From Isoetes taiwanensis (taxonomy: Eukaryota; Streptophyta; Lycopodiopsida; Isoetales; Isoetaceae), in the NCBI GenBank assembly GCA_021234155.1, contig JAJEKV010000013.1:5398775-5462774 (forward strand): 64,000 nucleotides of DNA. Reading direction: 5' to 3'. The notes beneath the pieces were generated by a model, which was not told the origin of the DNA, ran no database searches, and worked only from the letters and a program-made list of their open reading frames with translations. The first letter of the stretch is position 1; the number at the start of each line of letters is the position of its first letter. The translations under genes were made by a program, and so were the position numbers. Below are positions 17,939 through 44,580 of this stretch, one piece after another.

Positions 17939-18719
17939 AGAGGTATTAGTCAGGCTAATACTAAGTAGTGTACACCACTGTGCCTTGGATAGGCAGATCG
18001 TCCATAAGGACATGGCATCAGAGGAAGGTCTGATGGCCAAGCCGTATGTGTTGGGAGTCATGACCCCAAACATACGTTGGTTCTTACAAGATGCCTTCGG
18101 CAAAAAGGCAGCCAATTAAGGCCATAGGGAAAAAGGCTAAAGAGAGAGCACAGCTTATAAATAGAGAAGAGGACTTATTAATAGAAAAATGGACATATGA
18201 ATAGGGAAGTGACGTTGAAGGAAGGGACGTGACTTTTGGCCATTGGGCTTTTGCTGTCTCTCGCTGCTCGGGGGAGAATCTAAGGATTCTATGGTTGGGT
18301 GGAGAGTTCTGCCTTTTCCCTGCTGTGTGCTAGAGTAAGAACTTAACTGAACTCTCCACCCAGCCATAGAATCCTTAGATTCTCCCCCGAGCAGAGAGAG
18401 ACAGCAAAAGCCCAATGGCCAAAAGTCACGTCCCTTCCTTCAACGTCACTTCCCTATTCATATGTCCATTTTTCTATTAATAAGTCCTCTTCTCTATTTA
18501 TAAGCTGTGCTCTCTCTTTAGCCTTTTTCCCTCTGGCCTTAATTGGCTGCCTTTTTGCCGAAGGCATCTTGTAAGAACCAACGTATGTTTGGGGTCATGA
18601 CTCCCAACACATACGGCTTGGCCATCAGACCTTCCTCTGATGCCATGTCCTTATGGACGATCTGCCTATCCAAGGCACAGTGGTGTACACTACTTAGTAT
18701 TAGCCTGACTAATACCTCT
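17939..18719. repeat. Near-perfect inverted repeat, 371-bp arms, 39-bp loop
   Basis: The left arm (17939-18309) is the reverse complement of the right arm (18349-18719). I count only about three mismatches, for example ATAGGG against AGAGGG and GGTTGGG against GGCTGGG. The arms contain TTATAAATAG, a TATA-like motif, and TGTTGGGAGTCATGACCCC, which resembles the start of a retrotransposon LTR. A diverged third relative lies at about 18880-19105. It may be two LTR pieces joined head to head, or a foldback element. An RNA across it would form a long hairpin. Confidence 0.92.
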
Positions 18720-19259: not shown

Positions 19260-20720
19260 TAAAGACAACTGACCTCAGTTGTTGGAACTCCCAATCGTTC
19301 CAGATGGACCTGCTTCATATAGAATAGGCCTTCCACATTCAGAACGCAGATAAACTTCCCTGTAAGCTTCCAGTAAAGACAAATGATCACGGAAGTATTC
19401 TTCTTTCTGCCATTCAGCTTCTGTATGTGGTGCATTGAGATACTTGACCAAATACCGCCTCCATTGTCCCTTCCCTTTATGCTGAACAATCATTTCTGGA
19501 ACAAACACTGATTCAGCCTCCTCCAATTCTGGTTCTGCTTCAACAGGTAACAATTGTGGATTAGTTCCTTTGAACGGTCTCAAGTACTCAATGTTGAATG
19601 CATTATGTATCTTCCATTGTGGCGGAAGTTCAAGTCTGTATGCATTACTATTAATCTTCTCAATTATCCGAAATGGACCATAATTCCTTGTCAGCAACTT
19701 ATGCTTCTTCCTATCAGGTTGAGCTCTTCGCTCCTTAATAACACGCACAAAAACCCAGTCATCTACTTCATATTGTACTTCCCGTCTTCTTCGATTTGCA
19801 GCAGCAGCATACTTTTCTTGAGCCGCTCTTATTGAAGAACGAACTTCCTCTAACACCTGATCCATGTCCTGCGCCACTTTGTCCGCTTCCATCACACCTT
19901 CAGCCACTTTGATCATTGGTGTTGGTGGCAGCCGATCTTGAACAATTTGGAAAGGCGCTAACTTCGTTGCTGAATGTGTTGCCATATCGTACGCGAACTG
20001 TACCATAGGTAGATAATTCTCCCATTCCCCTACGTGCTCATGGACATAACTCCGCAACATAGACAGTAATGTTCTATGAGTTACCTCGGTCTGCCCATCT
20101 GTTTGAGGGTGAAAAGCAGTGGAGAACTGCAACTTTGTTCCAAGACTTGTGAACAATGCACGCCAGAACTTACTACAAAACTTTGAATCCCGACCGATAT
20201 ATTATCACCTGGGGGCCCATGATTTTTGAACTTCCTTAAGGAAAAGTGTTGCAACAAGATCGCTCGGGGACTTCTTACAAGGAATGAATATGGTATACTT
20301 TGTTGAATCATCCACAATGGTCCGGACTTGATCATTGCCTTGGATACTACGTGGCACGGAAACAAAATCCATAGTCACATGCTGGAAGGGTTTTTCAGGC
20401 ACACACAATGCCATGAGCAACCCAGGAGTCTTGGCGTGTGAATCTTTTGTCTTCTGACAGGTTACACATCTTTCCACAAATGTGATCACATCACTTCTGA
20501 GTGACAAGAGTATTAAATATACCTCTATGCCCTGCCGTTGGAACTTCATGACATTCTTTCAACACAATATCACGAAAGTTTTTCGTTACGCACAAACAAT
20601 CATTGTGGAACAAGTATCCCCTCAAATGTAGTGATTGTCAACTACTCGCTTTCGACTTTCATTGAGCAGCAACCTCGCTAAACTCTGAATCACCTTCATA
20701 TTCATTTTTCATGGCTTGTA
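19260..20720 (-). mobile_element. Truncated Ty3/gypsy chromovirus: integrase with C-terminal chromodomain
   Basis: The - strand carries the end of a pol gene. It starts with a remnant of the HHCC zinc domain (CVTCQ at about 20455-20470). The core's first catalytic Asp is in MDFVSVPRS. The third acidic residue, the Glu, is in HPQTDGQTE (in the 293-codon frame 19275-20156). The reading frame changes close to the second catalytic Asp (about 20170-20205). The C-terminal GPFRIIEKINSNAYRLELP module is followed by a chromodomain-like segment with RRYLVKYLNAPHTEAEWQ. Gag, protease and RT are absent, since sequence beyond 20720 is unrelated. Chromovirus chromodomains steer integration to marked chromatin. 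This copy is defective. Confidence 0.88.
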
Positions 20721-30657: not shown

Positions 30658-33129
30658 TTTTTGCTGTAAAAGAAGATAAATGCCATATATCAGCTAAGTC
30701 AGTCACGGAGTAAATAGAATTTAAAATAATTTGAAAGTATTGCTGCTATCTAGTATAAGGAAAGAATGGAAGTTTTTCAAAGAACATTGCCTTAAGGCTT
30801 TGGACATGTTCCACGAAGAAATTAAGGTCTGCAATATTTTTCTAAATCGGAAAATGAGGTATATGCTTAGGGAGTTCACTAAAGAGGTGAAGGCTTGCTA
30901 AAGAAACATAGAGGCAAGTTAGATATTGAGACATGCATCCCTTTGGCCTTTAGCCTGATTGTAGCACTGCCAGAACTCAATTGGGGATTAACCAACCTAT
31001 CAACAAGGGTTTGAGCTTGAAATTTCGTGAGGAGATCAATTTGCCTCTGTTGAAGCTTCAGAATTATCATCTTATGCACTTATAATAATAATAAGTGCCA
31101 AAATCTGAACAGTAGATTTAAAACATCGATCTACTATACAATGATTAAACAAAACTGAAGCTATTTGAGATTAAACTAAAGCACAATGATTAACCAAAAC
31201 ACTGATTAAATCTCTTGAACTTACATGCCAGGAGAATCTCCTACTATCTGAACTGTAGAAACAACACCAAATAATGTCCAAGCAACTTAACAAAAGGAGC
31301 AGCAAATCTGATTACTTATTGATGTACATAGATCCATAATCCGTATGACTAGTAAATAAATAAAAACTTTATCACCTGAGCAATTCCAAAACCAACTGAA
31401 GTTCTCAGATTACATTGGCTATATCTTGTATGAGTTATATGACTCATCAGTAATGGTTTTGCAATATAAGTCCTCAATTTTGCTCTTAACTTGTGACATT
31501 TTCAGTGATTTGCCTGCAAAAAATATTCATCCCTATGATTCAATAAGCAATCTAATAAGGAGAAGCAGCATACGTATGAAATCTGTGCTCAAACCTGTGC
31601 TTGATGTGTTCAATGCTGAGCTAACAGGATATACGAAAACTCCATAGCTAAAAAGCCCTAATTGAAAATTGCAAATGCCGGAAGGTGTAAACATGGCGAT
31701 TTAAGGCTTCTTGGTGCGCACTGTCCGTCTTCAATCAAGGCGAATCAGTTCACCTGGCAGCAGAATTTCTCGGCGAATCGTCCGCTGTCGTAGGATTTCC
31801 CCCTTTCGACATGGCGAAAAAATTCGACATGGCGACATGTTCTATTCAATGGTTTCGCCATATTTTTTTGTAAACGTCCCAAAAATTTGCCATTTGGCGA
31901 AAAATCGCCTCTCTTTAATTCCCTACCTGCCTAATCATTAATGCACTCAATTGTGTGATGCACCTCCTGCCATTCCTTCACAGGTACCAATAGATTTTGC
32001 TGTTGAATAGAGCATACTAGATTTGCACCATCGCGTAAACATCAAGAAGTGGTACATTTCATGGCACTAAAGTAGAAGATGCCATATTGAGACTTGCTCA
32101 AGCCACTCCATCTTTGGAAATCCACGTTCTTTCAATATATACATGATAAAACGAGCGATTGTACACGTGTATATGTGTATTTGATTCAAAAAAAACATAG
32201 ATTCAAGATAAAAAATATTCACATTAGCTCACTCGATGCATTGGTTAAAGTAGTCTTATTAAGACATTAAGTGATTTTAATAGAGGTTCGAGCCCTCATA
32301 TTTCATCTTGTAGGAGGAAGAGGAGGAAATTTTTCAATATTACCATCCCTACTACCCTTATGTTAAGAGAGTATTAACCATCACTACGAGGTAAACTTGA
32401 CTATAAGAGCACAATTCTAAGCACTTTGCTCAATTGAACAATACATGATAAAAGGGTTGGCGAGTGCAATATATTTTCTTTCAAAGAACATGCTTACAAT
32501 TTCATCTACAGGCTTGCACGAAAAAGTTGTTTTTCATCAACATCTATACTTACCTTTTTTTGCAGAAAAGAAACCCGATACTAAGCTTTGCAGCAGCATC
32601 TTCCCAAAACCATTTGGGACAGCTTGGTTGAAATTAGCCCACATGGATCAGCTTGATGAATCTCGAACACCTTGATATCTTTTAAATACCCAAAACTCAG
32701 ATCCATTTAGAATTATTAATGTCCTCCCGAATAAATGATTATTCTGTTGCTTTGTCTGTAAGCTTTTAAACCCAAACCCTGGATACAAAACTATCTGATA
32801 GCTTCAGTGCTTTTCTGCATTTTATGGAAACAGGGAATCAAGTGCTGGATAAATGACACATGGAAGAGTTATTGCTTGCTATTAACAACAAACGACAAGG
32901 AGGCTTCTACGATACAACGTATATCAAGTTTGTAACGATGTTAAGAGGCTGCATACTTTGGCTACAGAGGAGAAGAGAATTTTTGCCGATTCAGCGGATA
33001 CAACAAGAAGACAAATGCAACATCCTTTATTCCATGCAATCGTGCCCGATGAATCCATGAGGAAAAGTAGTGAATTTCGAGTAAATGCATGCGTACAATA
33101 GGAAAATGTACGAAAAATGAACCATAATG
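30658..33129. other. Intergenic DNA upstream of the hAT-like gene and of the retroelement
   Basis: The region 31690-31906 is rich in TGGCGA/TCGCCA motifs on both strands and may be an end of the hAT element, but I could not define termini. A + strand frame at about 32915-33100 is open and contains LATEEKRIFADSADTTRRQM; I do not recognise it. A SINE-like head is listed separately. Confidence 0.45.
32225..32310 (+). mobile_element. SINE-like, tRNA-related sequence
   Basis: TAGCTCACTCGATGCATTGG resembles a pol III A box, and GAGGTTCGAGCCCTC (about 32283-32297) is a good B box. Spacing is slightly longer than in tRNA genes and the arms do not fold into a cloverleaf, which favours a SINE head. 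The 3' end is not defined. Confidence 0.5.
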
Positions 33130-33211
33130 GTGGACGTGTTGGAGTGGTTATCGGGCATGACTAGAAATCATATGGACTTTGCCCGTGCAGGTTCGAATCT
33201 TGTCGTCCACG
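33130..33211 (+). tRNA. tRNA-Ser(AGA)-like gene, probably decayed
   Basis: The acceptor stem GTGGACG/CGTCCAC is perfect. The anticodon loop CTAGAAA gives anticodon AGA. A serine-type long variable arm follows, and the T arm contains GGTTCGAATC. Several stem positions are weakened to G-U or mismatched pairs: the D stem begins TTG, the T stem ends CTTGT, and the variable arm is GGAC/GCCC. Each change is a C-to-T or G-to-A transition from the usual plant sequence as I recall it. That pattern suggests a methylated, decaying copy rather than an active gene, though function cannot be excluded. It ends 7 bp before a primer-binding-site-like motif of the adjacent retroelement. Confidence 0.75.
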
Positions 33212-33218
33212 ACCTCCA

Positions 33219-33232
33219 TGGTATCAACTTTC
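33219..33232 (+). promoter_or_regulatory. Possible primer-binding site (initiator tRNA-Met type)
   Basis: TGGTATCAACTTTC matches the first eight bases of the common plant retrotransposon primer site TGGTATCA and then diverges. It sits at the right place for the 5' end of the element, but no 5' LTR precedes it, so chance is possible. Confidence 0.35.
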
Positions 33233-33282
33233 ATTTTATTTTTCCATTCCACTTCGTTTTATTTTTCCATTCCACCTCGTTT

Positions 33283-34313
33283 CCTAACCCTGATGCTGAG
33301 GGAGAAGACCAGCAGCAGGAGGATGCCCAAGATCAGACCCAGGAACCAGAGGATCAAGAAAACCCTGAGGATCAGGGAAATGGCCAGGAGGAGGATGACG
33401 AAGAGGGCGAGCCGATTCCCCAAGAATTAGCAACTCGGTTGAAGAAAATGGCAAAGAAAAAGAGAGCAGCGAAGAGGAAGAGGATTGCAGAGAGGGAGGA
33501 GTGAAAAAAAAACAAAGGGAGGAGCAGCAAAAGCTGAAAGAGGCCAAAGGAAAGGACCCCGAAGTGCCCAAGAAAACCCGGAGAAAGACCAAGTCAACAC
33601 CAGCAAAAAGGGTGAGCATAAGGGAGCGAGAGCTTGACAGGCCACCGTCTTCTTCATCAGACACCGACTCGGATGAGGAGGCGTCAAGAGTACCCCGCCC
33701 AACAGAAGGTTTCGGGCCTTCAAATCCAGAGGAGCAGGAGGATGCATCTGCAGCAGCACCTCCATACCCGAAGTGGCCGAAGCCAACAACTAAACCAAAG
33801 AAGGGCAAGCCGGCTCGGGAATCCTTTGTACTCAAGCACGAGCGGGAGTACAGGAGGAAGCTGAAGGAGTACAACGAGTACATGAAGATGTAAGAGGAGT
33901 ACTCGAAGTTTTACGAAGCAAATAAGGTGACGTACGTGGAGGGAGGAAGGCCGACAAAGAAGAATACCCTGAAGCCGCCCTGGAGAGATCAGTACCAACC
34001 AAAAAAACCCATGAAGAGAAAAGCGGACTCCTATTTTGCAAGAGCAGCTCGGGAGATTCGCCATTTTCAGAGGAGCTACGGACTGCTGATTCCAAGAGCT
34101 GCCTTCGCAAGACTCACCCGCGAGATCCTGCAAGAATTCGACAAGACAAAGAGAGTAACAGACGACATGTTACTTGCGTTGTAGGAAGCGGCAGAGCAAA
34201 GGTTGGTCCAGCACTTCGAAGATTCCCTAGCATGTCCTCTTCATGCAAAGAGAGTCACTTGTATGCCTAGAGACATGAAATTAGCGAGGTTTATAAAGAA
34301 GAAAGATTGCTAA
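33283..34313 (+). pseudogene. Histone H3-like protein with long charged N-terminal tail, retroelement-associated
   Basis: The C-terminal part (34029-34310) is a histone H3 fold. It reads AREIRHFQRSYGLLIP (alpha-N), then AFARLTREILQEF (alpha-1), VTDDMLLAL before a stop, [14 protein letters not shown] (alpha-2), [18 protein letters not shown] (loop 2 and alpha-3), and ends KKKDC. It aligns to H3 without gaps, so loop 1 is not lengthened. The preceding roughly 250 residues are not an H3 tail. They are acidic (many E, D, Q), then Lys/Arg-rich, with SSSSDTDSDEE and PPYPKWPKP, and lack ARTKQTARKS-type motifs. Breaks are a frame change at a nine-A run near 33504, a TAA at 33891, and a TAG at 34182 exactly where H3 has the Gln of ALQEA. 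No initiator Met is apparent, so the 5' end is truncated or spliced. The histone identity is very secure. Function in the element is unknown. Confidence 0.9.
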
Positions 34314-34450
34314 CTTAATGTAACTGTAGAAACTTTTTGTGAATATAAATATGTTTTAATCAAGTGTAAAGTATAAAATTGTGTTATTGAGGTTGTAATA
34401 ATGGCATGCGCATTTGGAATTAGTTAAATTGGACGAATAGTCACTGTTTT

Positions 34451-34724
34451 GGAGCCCACCCCTTACAGAGTGTGCCTGGAGCATTTCCAAAAGTTTTGAG
34501 AATGCCTCTCACGCACTGTGTCAGCATTTGGCTACTGATCTATGTCTAGACTTGTCCAGATGTAGAAAGTAAGGGTACAAATTTCCTTAACTCTGCGAGA
34601 TAAGTAGGATTCCATTCTTAGATTATAATTTTAGAGCTATCTAGGACCTAAACAGGAGCCCACCCCTCACAGAGTGTGCAGGACCATTTCCAAAAGTTTT
34701 GAGAATGCCTCTCGCACACTGTGT
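34451..34724. repeat. Direct repeat pair of about 70 bp between the H3-like ORF and the next ORF
   Basis: GGAGCCCACCCC(T/C)(T/C)ACAGAGTGTGC and ATTTCCAAAAGTTTTGAGAA occur at 34451-34521 and 34655-34724. They flank a short spacer upstream of a TATA box. They may be regulatory repeats or the trace of an insertion. Confidence 0.85.
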
Positions 34725-34903
34725 GAGTGATCAGACCAAAATGACCCAAATTCATCCCAAGTACCTCCAAAGTAGGCAAAATTTTTTGCAGTCGGATTAG
34801 TAAGAGGTACTCTTCAATCCAGACCACCTATCAATTGCATAGCAGGACCTTGAAAGCATAGACATTCCCAAACTCAAAAAATTTCTCAGATTGAGGTTTT
34901 GCC

Positions 34904-34911
34904 TATAAATA
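34904..34911 (+). promoter_or_regulatory. TATA box ahead of the unrecognised ORF
   Basis: TATAAATA lies 112 bp before the ATG at 35023, followed by a C/T-rich leader (ACTCCGTCACTCCTCACTCC) typical of plant transcription start regions. It suggests separate transcription of the ORFs downstream of the histone frame. Confidence 0.6.
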
Positions 34912-35022
34912 TGACCACAACCCTCATTTGCATCCTACTCCGTCACTCCTCACTCCAAGACACTCTTTCAGCTCCTAAAGGCGCTTCCAGATCCGTTTGA
35001 TAACCCTAGTAGCATCAACATC

Positions 35023-36556
35023 ATGGCTACTTCTGTATTCAGGCGATGGTACAACGCCATTGCTCATGTGGCTGAGGCTGACATCAATTCGATCTTCGTT
35101 GTATTCCAAAAGGAGATCGATGTAGATGCCACCATAAATGTCACGCTCTTCTACCAAGAGATTATGATCGAGTTCCATGCCAAGATAGGACCCTCTCTGG
35201 TAGAACTCCCCCCATGCATAGGATATTTTGCACTTAGAATGGCTCTCCGTGCAGCTCTGAATGACATCCCAAATATAGACAAGTACCTAGAAAATAAGGC
35301 TGCCCGCATACATGACTATATCCATAAATAAGAAGAGATATTTCTCCTATACTGCAGGTGTAGCTATCTTTTTGTCCCAAAGAGCCCAAACCCAGATAGA
35401 AAAACCCTCTGTTCAACCTCTAGAGCTTGAACCCATAGCCACAGAAGCAGGTGAAGAGGAGCAGATGCTCCTGGACTATGAAGAGTCAAAACAGGAGGAA
35501 GAGGCCGAGGAAGGACAGGGATCAGACGTGGAAGACATCATCGACGTCGACCCCATACAAGAGAGGCAGCAAACAGAAGTAGAGCTCCCAAACTTCGAAG
35601 AATGGTTGAGAGCAACAAGGACAGCACCCTCACTTGGGTTAGGCATCACTAGTCTAACCCCGATCATCATCCAAGGGGAAGAGTACCTGACGCTCCATGA
35701 CATAAAGAACCTCTCGGAGTGCAGAGATAGAGGGTACAGGGTGGACGAACTCCTGCACCTTCTCCGCCAGCAGCCCGATCTCAATGACTTCATCGACCAG
35801 GAGACTCAAGACTTCCCCATCAACATCAAGGAGGCCCACATGCACTCGCGGTCGTCATTGGACATCGAAGCTTACACCGCATCCGACAGGGCGATGACGC
35901 AGCGGGAGCTACCCTCGGAAGAGGAGTTCATCGCACTCCAAGAGTGGATGGACATCGTGGAAAAACAACAAAGCGCACTCCCCTTCCCAACACCTCGGCC
36001 AGTAGCGCGCCGAATAGAAAGAGGCGGCATCAACTTGACCTCTTCCAGGTCCATGTTCGGCGACTACAAAGAGATGATAGCAGTGCCAGTAGATGAGTAC
36101 TCCGGAAGACACAGGGATGGAATCAGAATCGGAGAAGAAACAACAGAGGGAGGACACGATAAAGCCCTCAGATTCTACCTGTCACTCCTCATCGATGGAA
36201 GAATAGCGGTCGTACACCGCCAGTTTAGCCCATGGGGTGAAGAAGAAGTTTTCATGATGATTGCCCTCTCAGGATTCAGAAGACATACCCGAATGCCTTC
36301 AAACATCAACCATGTCATCCTGGTCAAGAAGATAATAGCTTTAAGCGTCTTCGATTTTGCGGTCCCATACATGTGACATGGCAGGTTGGCCGTCACTGCA
36401 GCCTACACATCAGATAGGAGGATCGAAGACTTGGTGACGGCACTCCAAGATGGTACGACCGCCAACATCCTTAGAAACTTGGGGCGAACAGTTGGCACAA
36501 CCCAAGTGAAGAAGTTCTTGGAAGACAATCCAGCATATAGAAGATTCCAGGAATAG
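35023..36556 (+). pseudogene. Unrecognised retroelement ORF upstream of gag
   Basis: The first frame (35023-35331) starts MATSVFRRWYNAIAHVAEAD and ends near a frame change at about 35312-35331. The second (35312-36376) continues with an acidic, Glu-rich stretch, then an alpha-helical region including FPTPRPVARRIERGG and RFYLSLLIDGRIAVVHRQF. A single TGA at 36374 interrupts it, and the same frame runs on to a TAG at 36554 through TSDRRIEDLVTALQDG. I do not recognise a domain. The position, before gag, is like the ORF1 of Tat/Ogre elements, but pol here is of chromovirus type. A structural or nucleic-acid-binding role is possible. A cryptic intron could also explain the first frame change. Confidence 0.65.
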
Positions 36557-36630: not shown

Positions 36631-37974
36631 GTGTTCTTTGATATATTTTGTCCCCACAACTATATCATCAAACAAACCAATGCAATAACAAACAAAAAGC
36701 TAATCGTCAAAGTGCAATCTAATGTGTATGCAGCTAGAGCACCCAAGAATGTGGAACAAGATAGACAATCTCAGAAAGACCAAATACCCGCAAGGCAATT
36801 TCAGCCAAGGAACCTGTTCCAAGAGTTTGAGGCACCAATCCCAGAAGAAGAAATATCGCAGATAAGGTCGGATATCCATGAAATAAGAGCCTTGCTGGCA
36901 GGGGCGGCAACAATGGGACCAGACCAGAATGTCCAACTACCTCAAACATCAGCAGACAGAGCAGACAAAGCAAAGAAGAAAAGCCGGAGAAGGAGACCAC
37001 CTAGTACGGATTCCTCCAACCCTAGTTCCGACTCTGAATCCGAGGAAAAGGACAACAATCGATAGGACCGCCGGGAGGGTCCCAACGGTGATAGGGGCAG
37101 AATGGAAGCCGACTATCAGAAGAAAGTCGACCCGGCACTGAGCAACGTGTGGAAAGCCAAGAAATTGGAACAGTTCTCAGGGGACAACATATCTGGAATG
37201 GAAACCGAGGCTTGGTTGAATGAAATGAGGGAGTATGGGAATGCATATAGCATGAAGGATAAGGACAAGGGCAGGGTAGCAATAATCAACCTCAAGGGAG
37301 CAGTCAGAATTTGGTGGAAAGGCTATGCCAAAGCCCATGGGTTAAGCAGAGATAGCTACAGATTTAAGAAATTCTCCAAGGCATTTAAGTGTCATTACTT
37401 GCCGAGAAAACACAAGTGCCATATGATGCAACAGTTCTACAGGTTGGAGCAGGGCAATAAGACAGTCCAGAAGTACACCGAATAGTTCATGAGGCTGAGG
37501 CTCTATGCGCCAAAATTGAGTGAAAGACATGCAGTAGAGGGGTACATTGAAGGCTTGAACGAGGAGATCAGGAAGCTGGTGAGAGCAATAAATCCCAGAA
37601 CAGTGTCAGAAGCAGAGTCTAAGGCAGTGAGCTTACAAGGAACAGGACCTCAAGGGAGTGGGCAGAGACAACAGTACTATCAGGACAAGGGGAGGGCCAC
37701 AGGAAGCTACATCCCAAGAGCAACAAGCCCAGCAGCCACCAGACCTCAGTACAATGAAAATTATGGAAAGCAAGGCAATGCAAATTTTGGCAAGCAGGAC
37801 AAAAAGCAGGTCAGTTTCAAGGATAAGGAGCAAGCAGGTGGCTCAAACTACTCCAAAGCAGTGAAGCAGTTCTTACAGTCCATCCCCAAGGAGAAGAGGC
37901 AGGAATGTATTGAAAAGCAATTGTGCTTCAGGTGCCTCCAGCCAGGTCATCGGACACATAACTGCCCTTTGTGA
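36631..37974 (+). pseudogene. Gag polyprotein of the chromovirus, with CCHC zinc knuckle
   Basis: One frame runs from about 36631 to 37974 with two internal TAG stops (37063 and 37483). After a basic, serine-rich linker (KKKSRRRRPP) comes the retrotransposon gag domain: KLEQFSGDNI, TEAWLNEMREY, VRIWWKGYAKAHG and HYLPRKHKCHMMQQFYRLEQ. The nucleocapsid region ends in a CX2CX4HX4C knuckle, CFRCLQPGHRTHNC. Gag forms the virus-like particle in the cytoplasm and packages the RNA. Both stops fall where one C-to-T change from CAG would make them. Confidence 0.88.
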
Positions 37975-38105: not shown

Positions 38106-38426
38106 TATCAAGTCATTTCGATGATTGGGAAGGTCCGGGCCAAGTCCTTCATAGTGTTGATAGACACAGGGAGTACCCACAATTTTGTTTCGCCAAGGAT
38201 AGTAGAGATGTTGAAGCTGAAGCCTTTGAAGTCCAAGCCTAGACCGGTTGTGTTGGCAAGTAGGGCAATCCGACACATAGCAGGGAAGAGGATCAACTTC
38301 GACATAGACTTGCCAGGTATCAACATTGGAATGGGAGCAAAAGTGATGAACATCGGCAAGTACGATTTGATCATAGACATGGAATACCTTGGACTGGCTG
38401 GAGCCGTGATTGATTGTGGGAAGTGA
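38106..38426 (+). pseudogene. Retropepsin-type aspartic protease
   Basis: The frame contains VLIDTGSTHNFVS, the D-T-G-S active site of retrotransposon proteases, and the flap-side and C-terminal block YDLIIDMEYLG. The enzyme matures Gag-Pol inside the particle. It is separated from gag by a frame change and a TAG at about 38104. Confidence 0.85.
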
Positions 38427-38539
38427 AACCTTAACGACGCCAGAGAGCTAGGTCATTGAGATAACAGGTAAAGAGGTCACCCCAATCATGCAATGCATGT
38501 CTAGTAAGAAGTTACTTAGATGCATAAAGGAAGGAGCAA

Positions 38540-38833
38540 GTGACCTATGTCTTTAAACTCGAAGTTGACGAGCAAGAGGCAGAGGAAGACAAGGAGGCCA
38601 AAGCATTGTGCAAGCTCCCAAAGCCTATAGCCAAGTTGGTGAAGGAATTCCATGATTTGTTCCCAGATGAGATTAAGCATTTTCCACCTTACAGAGGAGT
38701 CGAATGTGAAATAGCACATGAGCCAGGAACGAAGCCAACAAGTAAGGCGCCCTACAGAATGTCACCTCAGAAGTTGACGGAATTGAAGAAGCAATTGCAG
38801 GAGTTGCTAGACCTAGGGGTTTATAAGATCTAA
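38540..38833 (+). pseudogene. N-terminal stub of reverse transcriptase
   Basis: The frame reads IAKLVKEFHDLFPDEI and then GTKPTSKAPYRMSP and LKKQLQELLDLGV, the fingers region that opens Ty3/gypsy RT. It stops at 38833. The palm with the catalytic aspartates and the whole RNase H are missing, and the next recognisable sequence is the integrase zinc domain, so an internal deletion of well over 1 kb is inferred. Confidence 0.88.
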
Positions 38834-40133
38834 CACAATAGCCCAATAGCCGGACACACAGGTTTTATGAAGACCTATTTTAAGATCAGAAGCAGCTACT
38901 TCTAGCCTGGCATGAAGAAGCAAATAGCCAAGTACATTTGAGAGTGCCCAGCTATGTCAGCAGACAAAGGCGGAACAACTCCGAATTCCTGGAGCTTTAG
39001 AGCCATTGCCTATGTCGAATGCAAAATGGGAGGTAATAAGCATGGACTTTATCATAGGGCTCCCGAGAACGGTAAGGGGCAAAGATGCCCTAATGGTGGT
39101 GGTGGACATATTGTCGAGGATGGCACATTTCGTGCCGTGCAGGACCACAGACACGGCGTTAGACACTGTCGTATTGTTCACCAAAGAGATGTTTAGACTC
39201 CACGGGATGCCGAGAGAAATAATCTCGGATAGAGATTCAAAGTTCATGAGCACATTCTGGCAAGACTTGTTCAACACGATTCAGATGAAGCTCTCCATGA
39301 GTACGGCATATCATCCTCAGACGGATGGACAGACGGAGCGCACAAATCGAATCATAGAAGACATGCTGAGAAACTATATCTGGAACAAGCAGTCTAAATG
39401 GGATGATTTTATTCACTTGGTGGAGTTCGCCTATAATAGCACCAAGCAGGAATCTTCCCAGATGTCGCCCTTCATGATAAATTATGGGTATCAATGCTTA
39501 ACATCAGATACATGGCACAATCTAGTGTCCAAAGTTGAAGTCTCTCAGCATATATTATCGAATATGTAGCAGCTAGTGGAGGAGATGAGAGGATACCTCC
39601 TAGCAATGAGAAGTAGGCAGAAAAGCATAACCGATAAGCACAGGGTAAGGGAATTCCAGGTTGGAGACAATGTATGGCTGAAGATCAAAGTCAAACAAGC
39701 GAAGCTCCGCATTGACAATTGCAAGAAGCTTGCTCCAAGATGGGCTGGGCCATTCAGAATAACTAAAAGAGTAGGTAGCCAATCCTACAAGTTGGACCTG
39801 CCAGCGCATCTAAAATCCATAGAGTCTTCCATGTAAGTCTCCTGAAGAGGCACACTCCTAATCCGGAGGAAGTATTGGAGACAACAGAGTTACTGGAAAT
39901 GACGGACGACCAGCTTGAAATCGTTTCAGAGGTTCTTCTTGACAGGTCCTATAAGAAGACAAGAAGATCAATAATACCTAGTGAAATGGACGCACTTACC
40001 TGTGGAAGACACTACGTGGGTACTACAATCAGATTTAGAGAAGTAGTACCCCCAATTCATGGAGCAATGCAAGGGTCGACTCGTCACCGAAGTAGTCGAC
40101 ACTGAACCGATAGGTGAGTGTGAGGTAGACTAA
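38834..40133 (+). pseudogene. Integrase with HHCC finger, DDE core and chromodomain
   Basis: The zinc domain begins HNSPIAGHTGFMKTYF and ends near ECPA, with TAG and TGA stops at a Trp-like and an Arg-like position. The core is open from 39006 to 39566. Its three acidic residues lie in WEVISMDFI, IISDRDSKF and HPQTDGQTERTNR. A TAG at 39567 precedes the C-terminal module (AGPFRITKRVGSQSYKLDLP). After further frame changes a chromodomain-like segment is readable at about 39975-40133, with LVKWTHLPVEDTTWV. Integrase inserts the DNA copy, and the chromodomain would recognise modified histone tails. Present breaks make it non-functional. Confidence 0.88.
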
Positions 40134-40800: not shown

Positions 40801-42180
40801 AAGGTGGGGAGATTGTGACGTTCCAACATAACATACGATCCGAATACGTATATTATACTACCATGTCACACATACATGTCACCACGACAAGTACTTGAGA
40901 GCCGTAAAGAGTTGCACCTAAGGGGCAACCTCGTATGTTGCACATGTATATTAAACATATGCAATTAACCCCCCTTGCCAAGTGGCAATACACCATTTGA
41001 TCCCTTCTAACCTGACCCTAAAAGTTCATGTATAAGGAACAAAAGGGGAAAACCCTAAATCTTTCCCATTTTCACATTTTGGCTTCCCTAAGCCATTCTA
41101 GCCAAGGCAAGCTGCCATTCTGCATTGTCAGACGCCGCTGAGCCGCCTTTGCACATTAGATTCATCAGGAGCCGCTGTCTTCAGCAAGGACGAAGGCAAG
41201 GACGCAATTCGGGGAGCTGGACCAAGCCAAGGATCAGGTAACCTGCGATTCTGTTGTGCAAAACCGACTCTTAGCCCGGTAATGAGCTAGGATAGTATGT
41301 TAGATCAGTCTTATCAGCCATGTAGATCCTCAGATCACCAGCCGTAACGAAAGAACCTAACCATGTATGTTTAGGTAAGATAGATTAGATCTTATTCAGT
41401 ATTTCAGTTCTTGGTGATGATGATGTTCCATTCTATGCTTGTATATGGGAAGGGGGGTAGAGACCCTGAAACCTTCAGTAGCAGATGATCCTAGATAACC
41501 TCATTAATTCTCAATTAATGTGGCCCGTGTACAAGAAAGAGCCTGCCTGGTTGTGGGTGGTGGGGCTAGACCGGTGGAATAAGGGGGACTTGTCCCATCA
41601 CTGTCTGATCCCTCTGGTGTGTAAAGCCTATCGGGGATCTAAGCAGGCTAGGCTTAATGGTTTGCCACTGCATGTGGGCAAGGCATGAGCTCGACACCTC
41701 TTGGGTGATGCGTCACGTTCAATGAGGTTCAAGTGGAATACGGGCAGTGGCCATCTAGCCGCCTGTGATGGGCATGCGTGCCTCTGGAGGGGAGGAGACT
41801 CTCCTCCTGCCTCATCGGGACTGGGGAGATGCAACCCAGCAGTAGCCCCTTTGGCTACGCACGGCCGGGCTACGGTCCAGTCCCACGACTCTTCAACCTA
41901 CTCTGCAAAGTATGCATGGGAGGGGCGGATGGAGTGGACTACCCAACAACCATGTTTCTATGCCAGCCCAATCCGTTCTTATGAATTCCATCTGCAATGA
42001 CTTCTGGAGGTCCAAGCCGTCAATCCATACCCTGGAGTCCAAGCCATTGGGTAGGATCCCCCTTGTGATGATGATATTATTGATGTGCTATTACATGTAT
42101 GTTATGGTGAAGTCACCCTTCGAGGTGACTCTGTTGATATATTGATGTCATGTGCTTATGTTCATTCACGCTTCCGCAGC
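40801..42180 (+). mobile_element. Polypurine tract and putative 3' LTR of the chromovirus
   Basis: AAGGTGGGGAGA (40801-40812) is a good polypurine tract. The LTR would begin TGTGACGTTCC at 40814. A TATA-like TGTATAAGG lies near 41030. The far end is not fixed; TTCCGCA near 42179, where the opposite-strand gag element starts, is only a guess. No second copy of this LTR was seen, so the call depends on the tract and position. Confidence 0.5.
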
Positions 42181-44580
42181 TAGGATGATCCCGAGAGAAG
42201 ATTTTTGGCAAATGACCCATCCATTCTTCCTCATCGAACCATTGTTAAGGATTGGTGTCAGGTGGATGGCCCCTGTCAGTTTGGCTGCCAGGGGGATGGA
42301 CTCCGCCTTCGGATATGATGGGGGCATCGTAAAAGAAGTACGGGACGTCACCGAGAGACTGAGGGAAATTTTGATTTTTGCAAGCTCTTCTTTTAGCTCT
42401 AAGGGAAAGTGAGCTAAGGGATCAGTAGGATCCAACGGTGCGGGTGCCGGAGGCATCGACGCAGAAACTTCCTTTAGGAGTTCAACTTCAACAGCAATGT
42501 TGGGATACGGCTGAGTGCATGAGGGGATCTTAGACGTGGAAGGTACATCCTGGTGCTGCTAAGTGCGTGTGGTGGCGTGAACATTAGCCAGCGTGCATCC
42601 TTTAGTAGCTTGCATCAGTTTGAGAATACTTTGATGGATTTTGAGCATGACATGGGGCATGAGCTTGTCAAGATCGGGGTCGAAATGAACCGTCTTTGGT
42701 TCCTCATGAGGAATATTGTTGATAGAAAAGGCAGGCTATGTGTCTTGAGGCATGAGCGTCAAAGGGCATGTGCCCAGTGGTTGGCGTGAGACCAGACCTA
42801 CCTAGTTGGATTGTTCGACTAAAGGGTTGAGAGCTTGATAGATCTCTTCTTGAGCCTGTTGATCCAGGGCCTTGATGGAGGAGCTTGTTGGGGCGCTATT
42901 GAGGCGCCTGAGGTGGTTCCTTCGACGTGGGACAAGGGCCTTGTTTGCCGCTTGGCAACCCAGAGTTGATAAGAGTAAGGGACCGAGGGCGCTTTGGTTC
43001 GTGCCTGGAAGTTGTACTTGGACTTGAATTGTGGGCATGCCATGGTGGTATGACCCCATTCTTTATAATGATAGCATTGAGCTTTTGCTGGATCAAAAGG
43101 AGTGCGTGAGTTTTGACCATGTCGTTGCTGAGGTTGCCGAGATTGTGGATATTGCTGTGGCTGTGGATATGGTTGAGACTGTGGATATTGCTGAGGTGTC
43201 GTTTGAACTTGGAAGACTATCTTTTGTCGAAAAGGTATGGGATGAGAGCGTATGCATTCTTTAGTAGCATGATTGCACATGTTGCAACATTTGCAATGAG
43301 GAGGACCATTAGAGGAATTGCATTGATGGCCTTGATACTTACAGATATGGCACCAAATTTGACTGCGTTGAGGTGGAGCAGATTGATGAGGTTGAACTGT
43401 GTTTTGTGGAACTATAACGGGAGGAATGAAAGGGAGATCTATGAGAGGAATGCCTCGGGAAGATACGTTGACAGAAATTCTATAGCGTGGTCCAACGTCT
43501 TGGGGCGCAAGTACTCAGTCATAAGATGAATAGCAGGAGGCAGACCCTGCAGAAACCAAACTAAGATCTGACTCTGCATGGGATATTCTTTGAGCTTACT
43601 AACCAAGACATGGAGACGGTCGGCAAAATCACGGGCAGATTCCGTGGGTTGTTGTTGAAGGTCATTGAGTTACTTGAGAACTTGTTGATCATCATCAGTG
43701 GTACTATAATGTGATAGGAAGGCAGTCTTCATTTCTTGCCAGTTCTGTTTTCAATGACTTTTATTGGCCATAAGCCATTGATGAGGAGCGCCACGCAGCG
43801 TGGTGGAGGAAATATGAAACTTGAGTTGTGGCTGAGAGTGGCCATTCAAGATAGCCAGAGCTTCGAATTATTCCATGTGTGCCTGCGCACTGTGATCAAG
43901 GATGGGCTTTCCCTGTGCATTCCCAAAAATCAGATAGGTAAGCTTGAGATTACGAGCAGTCGACGGGACAGGAACCTGCGGGTAAGGTGGTGGAGCATAA
44001 GAAGGAGCATAACCTTGAGGCACAACATGGGCTGGGAGCAAGGTATTTGCGTGTGGACCGTGAAACCAGGAGGTCCTGAAAGAGGAGCGTCATTTGGCAA
44101 GATCCCGCGGGTGCCATCCTCATTCAGTTTGAGATCACCAACATTGTAAACTCGAACAGGAGGTTGGAAAGATGGAGAAGACTGAAATTCTTGAACATGA
44201 TTGGGACTGAAAGAAACTTGAGAGTAGCCCATACCATGCTAGGGAGAAGATGGTTGTGAAAGCAACGGCATCGGGCCAGAAGGAATGTGAATGTAAGTGC
44301 TTTCCGTCGTTTGAAAGTAATGAGGAGTTTGATACACAGGAGTGTGATATAGTGACTGTGGTTGAGAACAATGTTTGCAAGCAGAGGAGACCCCCTACGG
44401 AGCAAACATGAGGGGTAGATGGTGTAGAATGAGCACACGAGCGAATACGGCCACCTTCAGTATCATAATCAGCATCATACATATTGAGAGCAGCTTCTTT
44501 GCGTTGATGGCGATCCAATCGAGCCACAGTTTAGCTAAGAAGCTCATCTTGAGAAAAAGCACAAACTGACATCTTGGAGT
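42166..44580 (-). pseudogene. Gag region of a second LTR retrotransposon, several zinc knuckles, no pol
   Basis: On the - strand, broken frames give a gag domain: RGAPHQWLMANKS, a frame change, then MKTAFLSHYS, QQQPTESARDFADRLHVLV and LKEYPMQSQILVWFLQGLPP. Downstream come a cysteine/histidine-rich stretch (WCHICKYQGHQC and HCKCCNMCNHATKEC), a Pro/Gln-rich linker of YPQ repeats, and CYHYKEWGHTTMAC, a CCHC knuckle whose second Cys is Tyr. The frame then ends at the junction with the other element at about 42170. The element was probably truncated there. Its 5' side lies to the right. Confidence 0.75.

Follow-up and report, generated by a model that had tools for sequence, protein, structure and literature searches.

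Ty3/gypsy chromoviruses are built from LTRs, a PBS, gag, protease, reverse transcriptase (RT), RNase H, an integrase and SH3-like and Chromo domains, and they are flanked by a 5-bp target-site duplication. Core histones are known in DNA viruses, and giant viruses carry histones. According to the accessible part of a review on viral histones, single viral H3s and the bracovirus H4 are lone, host-like histones, sometimes with a lengthened N-terminus, which are thought to enter host nucleosomes, and single viral histones are mostly 73-89% identical to those of the host (PMC9145170). In orchids, Ty3/gypsy elements carry an ORF for an m6A RNA demethylase, and a screen of 121 angiosperm genomes yielded 15 unusual domains, with no histone among the nine described in the available text (PMC9289625). 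The VANC proteins of VANDAL transposons have been reported, in the available part of the source, as anti-silencing proteins that clear silencing from their own copies and target noncoding repeats (PMC10398659).

Described here is a chromovirus of Isoetes taiwanensis that carries a new kind of cargo. It shares all of the above features with Ty3/gypsy chromoviruses and differs from them in having an H3-fold ORF (ORF1) and a further ORF (ORF2) before gag, a complete copy of its more intact lineage (family 2) measuring 13.1 kb. It resembles the single viral H3s and the bracovirus H4 in bringing one host-like histone without partners; as far as the accessible text of the review allows a comparison, it differs from viral histones in its carrier (a retrotransposon instead of a DNA virus or polydnavirus), in its many genomic copies, in an N-terminal part of hundreds of residues where theirs has tens and, for the family to which the analysed copy belongs (family 1), in a fold only 45-48/89 identical to host H3, against mostly 73-89% (PMC9145170). 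As in the orchid elements, a gypsy lineage has a host-derived domain established as an additional ORF, the domain being a different one (PMC9289625, available text). VANC and VANDAL offer a model for a self-desilencing transposon protein with repeats in noncoding regions, but the VANC proteins are not described as histones in the accessible text, and anti-silencing is here a proposal (PMC10398659). The original prediction knew of no plant LTR retrotransposon family with a histone, and likewise no transposon-encoded histone was found in the open-access literature searched: the word "histone" is absent from the main text of a paper on the ORFs of plant LTR elements (PMC7264820) and from the available text of one on gene capture (PMC13317346), and no transposon-encoded histone is mentioned in the accessible parts of the viral-histone review (PMC9145170) or of a study on chromoviruses of non-seed plants (PMC2864245).

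The stretch of DNA analysed, hereafter the window, comprises 64,000 nucleotides, and its positions 33283-34313 encode a true H3 fold in a broken frame, a break that the original prediction does not mention. Scanned apart, the two halves of the fold matched the Histone family (PF00125, Pfam cut-off 26.4 bits) at 34014-34181 (30.6 bits) and 34185-34310 (29.2 bits), and both matched H3 chains of known structure (best E 1.3e-5 and 1.4e-9). The gapless alignment to H3 that had been predicted holds over 89 residues (Table 1); host H3 has the same residue at 46 of them, the stop being entered as X. Because the frame has many genomic matches and its coding frame bears a mark of selection, it lies far beyond chance. 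Position 33283 is the left edge of a truncated element and not the start of a gene; a start codon, a PBS and a 5' LTR stand upstream of it in sister copies. Besides the 5' LTR and the start of ORF1, about 1.4 kb of pol (RT-RNase H, at 38832/38833) is absent from the window copy.

Table 1. Features of the truncated element in the window (positions in the window).
Feature	Position	Strand	Remarks
ORF1, H3-like gene, 5'-truncated, frame-broken	33283..34313	+	frame change ~33501, TAA 33891, TAG 34182
H3 histone fold, H3 residues 47-135, gapless	34044..34310	+	Pfam and structure matches
Hairpin-forming repeat of ~73 bp, first of two 3' of ORF1	34451..34524	+	
Second hairpin repeat, ~-29 kcal/mol when folded	34655..34732	+	
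ORF2, protein without assigned family, split into two frames, related to family-2 ORF2	35023..36376	+	
gag, broken frame: capsid (Retrotrans_gag above cut-off) and zinc knuckle (below Pfam cut-off)	37102..37974	+	
Protease region	38106..38423	+	from position and reading; protease match itself obtained in family-2 copy L041
Reverse transcriptase start	38528..38832	+	from position and reading; ~1.4 kb (RT-RNase H) gone before 38833
Integrase core (rve)	38928..39566	+	above Pfam cut-off
Integrase C-terminal region, broken frames	39570..40102	+	SH3_Tf2-1 and Chromo at the corresponding place in copies E and H
3' LTR, TGTGACGT...GACGTCAC, purine tract before it	40814..42351	+	

The surroundings of the element include a tRNA-Ser (AGA) gene at window 33130-33211 on the plus strand (ARAGORN), 71 bp left of the truncated edge. 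The region 31790-35816, which takes in the host flank, is repeated at 97.8% identity on contig C1073 (L002), either as a segmental duplication or as an allelic contig.

The genome (1,658,258,908 bases in 1110 contigs) was searched with the DNA of 33283-34313, and the best 40 scored of 919 first-look candidates gave 41 matches, 77-100% identical apart from one fragment at 74%. Ten family-1 copies (A-J) were retrieved with 20 kb each, most of them broken like the window copy. In eight of the ten (A, B, C, D, F, G, I and J) the LTR-like stretch of window 40.8-42.35 kb also stands upstream of the H3 frame, and in A, D, E and H it follows pol, whole or in part; the LTR ends of the family read TGTGACGT...ACGTCACA. 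Next to the 5' LTR, the PBS TGGTATCAGAGC, which we take to fit the initiator tRNA-Met, was found in copies D, G and I, in the diverged copy I2 and in L041 of family 2, with one mismatch in B, while C is without it. The element reads 5'LTR - PBS - H3 ORF - ORF2 - gag - pol - 3'LTR, which bears out the predicted place of the histone gene upstream of a chromovirus gag-pol. The succession of Gag, protease, RT-RNase H and integrase with chromodomain was found across copies, the window supplying gag and integrase and copies E and H the SH3_Tf2-1 and Chromo domains (Pfam). All copy counts given here are lower bounds, because only the best candidates were scored.

The tail of the protein had been read as unlike any H3 tail, a claim that stands in one respect and falls in another. 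ORF1 opens with MARTKQTAR, the canonical H3 start, or with one letter changed in six of the ten copies (B, C, E, G, I and J), and with two-letter variants of it in A and D (the starts of F and H are not visible). H3 K9 is nevertheless missing from all visible family-1 starts, which show VVMP or VVRP in its place. ORF1 of I2 starts with MVRTKQTARVPRG. The canonical tail ARTKQTARK... with K4, K9 and K27 was found in neither family.

Family 2 came to light in a genome search with Arabidopsis H3.1. The best 150 of 9022 first-look candidates comprised 15 host H3 genes (96-98% identical), a single stop-containing place at 72%, and a group of 134 with identities of 71-86%. In these 134 the match begins at H3 residue 9-36, open frames extend up to 567 aa, and five have a stop inside the matched stretch. 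Nine copies were retrieved (L041 and L043-L050, the last around the fold only). In L041 and L043-L046 a single open frame encodes some 300 N-terminal residues followed by an H3 fold close to the canonical one, and the same parts are present in L047-L049 in broken frames. The fold (PF00125, E 4.9e-41 for ORF1) is identical to host H3 at 76/89 residues, and ORF1 starts with MAxTKx, the canonical H3 tail start being absent. When the N-terminal part alone, free of any histone, served as the genome query, 67 of the best 150 scored places (3332 candidates) lay in open frames that, at 405 aa or more, have the length needed to extend into the fold.

One family-2 element is complete: C974:15271966-15285078 (L041) spans 13,113 bp between two 1.6-kb LTRs (5' LTR 1606 bp) with ORF1 inside and ORF2 at L041:4285-5442. 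Its paired LTRs run TG...CA, and two pieces of their alignment show an identity of 91.7% over 1267 columns and 96.5% over 367; the 5-bp duplication CCGGC flanks both sides, family 2 being where the duplication was examined. Gag, protease, RT, RNase H, SH3_Tf2-1 and Chromo all exceed their Pfam cut-offs in it; its integrase is 78% identical to that of copy A, and the RTs of family 2 and of the family in the window are 77% identical.

R49 (K in I2), R69, R72, R83, K115, R116, T118, C110, H113 and L126 of H3 are kept. Of the positions examined, presumably those of DNA contact and H3-H3' contact, family 2 retains every one and family 1 most, R63 being lost in the latter. The H3 chaperone site reads DMLL or EMLL in family 1 and FAIL in family 2, against SAVL in host H3, and deposition by host chaperones is therefore uncertain.

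ORF1 of family 1 matches that of family 2 at E 2e-25, but the signal beyond the fold is marginal, 1-3 of 500 shuffles being as good; pieces of the two ORF2s are related as well (E 1e-5 and 4e-4, I2 ORF2 left out). No Pfam family reached its cut-off in ORF2, whether of the window copy or of copies of either family, and the 278-aa piece of it that was searched had no relative among 1089 protein-database candidates. A first protein-database search returned one H3-like protein, and the best 120 of 3608 hits in an alignment search all carry the Histone domain at a query coverage of at most 58%. NCBIfam gave nothing above cut-off, and the predicted structures of two proteins are of low confidence (mean pLDDT 53 and 41).

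In a tree of 89-98 columns, with many forks unresolved, each family formed its own clade (100/99 for both); a second tree left out P0001, P0017, P0033, P0046 and human CENP-A, the P rows being a subset. As to one capture or two, joining the families into a single clade was not rejected (AU p 0.207). An origin from CENH3 was considered, as family 1 shares EIRHFQ, LIPxAxF and a long N-terminal part with plant CENH3 (Arabidopsis), LIPxAxF giving the hint. Loop 1 has, unlike that of plant CENH3, the canonical H3 length in an alignment of G, D and I2 with H3 and CENH3 sequences. Over the 89 residues, G and D share 45-47 with H3s and 41-44 with plant CENH3s (I2: 43-44 and 42-43), and neither loop length nor identities support this origin. 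A giant-virus insertion, considered in view of the histones of such viruses, was discarded on the strength of the unit's LTR structure.

K9/K27 methylation drives plant silencing. Judging from its sequence, the product of ORF1 would most likely be a tail-swapped H3 variant that joins host H4 in nucleosomes, and we consider it probable that this chromodomain Ty3/gypsy lineage, with an H3 gene as its first ORF and a kept fold, makes a product that enters nucleosomes with its tail replaced. The H3 gene lies between the PBS and ORF2/gag, and, within the limits given below, its fold was kept under selection while the elements multiplied. The product would most likely fold with host H4 and enter nucleosomes, a step proposed because the fold and the DNA-contact and H3-H3' residues are conserved. 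The normal H3 tail would be swapped for an element-specific N-terminal part, nucleosomes on element DNA would be unable to carry K9/K27 methylation, and the N-terminal part might recruit element or host factors. What suggests silencing escape is that family-1 starts have no H3K9 site and family 2 has no canonical tail start; as the likeliest gain we offer, only tentatively, the missing K9/K27 methylation of element nucleosomes together with N-terminal recruitment. It is possible, if doubtful, that the element would in this way write its own chromatin, as unmarkable nucleosomes carrying an element signal, alongside its chromodomain integrase. For tail sites other than K9, loss was judged by visual inspection, and two family-2 copies, L048 and L049, retain ARKS in the ORF1 linker (VARKS; compare the K9/K27 context of H3), possibly a remnant of the H3 tail, where some others have AHKS.

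If the protein does sit in nucleosomes, a selfish element would supply the very substrate of the host silencing system. The old question of how plant retrotransposons escape H3K9 methylation would then become testable through a natural tail-swapped histone, and the family would be a natural experiment on how far the H3 tail can change.

The main rival to silencing escape is integration tethering, to which we give a somewhat lower probability. The histone part would plant the N-terminal domain in chosen chromatin, or dock the integration complex onto nucleosomes, and so steer insertions together with the chromodomain. Chromodomains are reported, in the accessible parts of two studies, to steer integration (PMC2864245, PMC9289625), the same element encodes a chromodomain integrase, and the N-terminal part is conserved; no Pfam family above cut-off was, however, found in the N-terminal part of family-2 ORF1.

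Doublet histones of some giant viruses condense DNA. By analogy, the ORF1 product might package the element, condensing its cDNA in the particle or the nucleus, and the basic linker, the intact DNA-contact residues and the place of ORF1 beside gag would suit this function. A lone H3 fold needs H4, however, and no other histone was found by Pfam in the pieces scanned (window, copies and family 2); moreover, the high identity between the family-2 fold and host H3 is a pointer to host nucleosomes. Packaging is improbable.

A tail-swapped H3 that serves its carrier, as preferred here, should be distinguished from a passenger, that is, a transduced host H3 copy, useless to the element, which spread by hitch-hiking. 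Such a passenger could explain why 17 of 40 ORF2-anchored family-2 copies have a mostly degraded H3 while their ORF2 is still 90-96% identical to that of L041; compared with L043 over the longest ungapped stretches, these 17 show 77 synonymous, 149 replacement and 2 stop differences. Part of this degradation is possibly assembly error. In most of L052-L068 the differences, inspected by eye, are concentrated in scrambled patches where the sequence is rich in C/G, and the blocks separating these patches are intact. The I. taiwanensis assembly was built from Nanopore reads polished with Illumina reads, according to the accessible text (PMC8566536), and the scrambled spots are either uncorrected errors in methylated repeats or real decay, the same doubt applying to the stops in the window copy.

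What leaves the passenger with little credit is the occurrence of H3 at the same place in families whose RTs have diverged as given above, and an excess of synonymous changes in shared family-1 variants, between families and between subfamilies. In the family-1 fold (16 copies), variants found in at least two copies were 48 synonymous and 19 replacement, against 37 and 68 among singletons (Fisher p 2.7e-6; L039 left out as misaligned, L037 never included, and L002 kept out of these and the within-family counts as a near-duplicate of the window), a pattern expected of a gene that is under constraint during the active phase of the elements and released from it once they have inserted, or else of errors in single copies. 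Measured against the diverged copy I2, synonymous change is at or close to saturation (dS 2.3 in one comparison), with dN of 0.27-0.44. In the nine family-2 copies, dS between subfamilies is 0.8-1.5 and dN 0.009-0.028, and the fold protein is identical in five chosen copies despite 2-15 synonymous changes. For the five intact family-2 ORF1s (L047-L050 being excluded for broken frames or an ORF not covered), dN/dS of the fold is 0.03-0.04 for L046 against the others, and that of the N-terminal part is 0.06-0.18 among the four closer copies, the linker being less conserved; the family-2 dN/dS is biased downwards because the nine copies were picked by likeness to H3. The synonymous excess in shared variants and between families shows past selection on the fold, and an H3 shape apparently kept while the elements multiplied suggests a use in managing the surrounding chromatin.

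How firmly the histone belongs to the element was assessed from ORF2. In family 2 an H3-fold sequence stands just upstream of ORF2 in all of the best 40 matches scored (1376 candidates), 23 with a listed H3 match at 437-458 bp and the remaining 17, those with mostly degraded H3, upon retrieval. The predicted capture of a histone is supported by this constancy within LTRs and a duplication. Copies lacking the frame, which had been named as evidence of mere adjacency, are thus absent among the 40 of family 2 but do occur in family 1. There, H3 lies nearby in 20 of 40 ORF2 matches (15 by listed matches, 5 by direct check): among the matches listed, H3 is no more than 3 kb away in 15 (at 660-717 bp in 13 of these), lies 4-14 kb upstream in 7 and is missing in 18. 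Seven of these 18 were checked directly, and H3 proved present in five (L038, L039, L071, L072 and L073) and absent at L070 and L074. Likewise, of 12 gag matches picked for lacking a listed H3 match nearby, six do have H3, L033 has later element sequence without it, and five have no element sequence at the place examined. Linkage is weaker in family 1 than in family 2; within these limits, an H3 fold sits at a fixed place in a bona fide LTR element and has been under past selection. That a retrotransposon merely happened to land beside a host histone pseudogene, as the window alone could suggest with its H3 frame outside any visible 5' LTR, is refuted by constant spacing over many insertions and by LTRs and a target-site duplication around the unit.

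In five of the ten family-1 copies (B, C, D, G and I) the H3 ORF has two of the hairpin repeats of about 73 bp in front of it and no fewer than two behind it, and the other copies have fewer. These repeats could, as a lead only, be a binding or expression element. Elsewhere in the window, a different, second chromodomain-type integrase end was seen by eye in the ORF list on the minus strand (19275-20156), and a 371-bp inverted repeat lies at 17939-18309 and 18349-18719, its arms 99% complementary and 39 bp apart.
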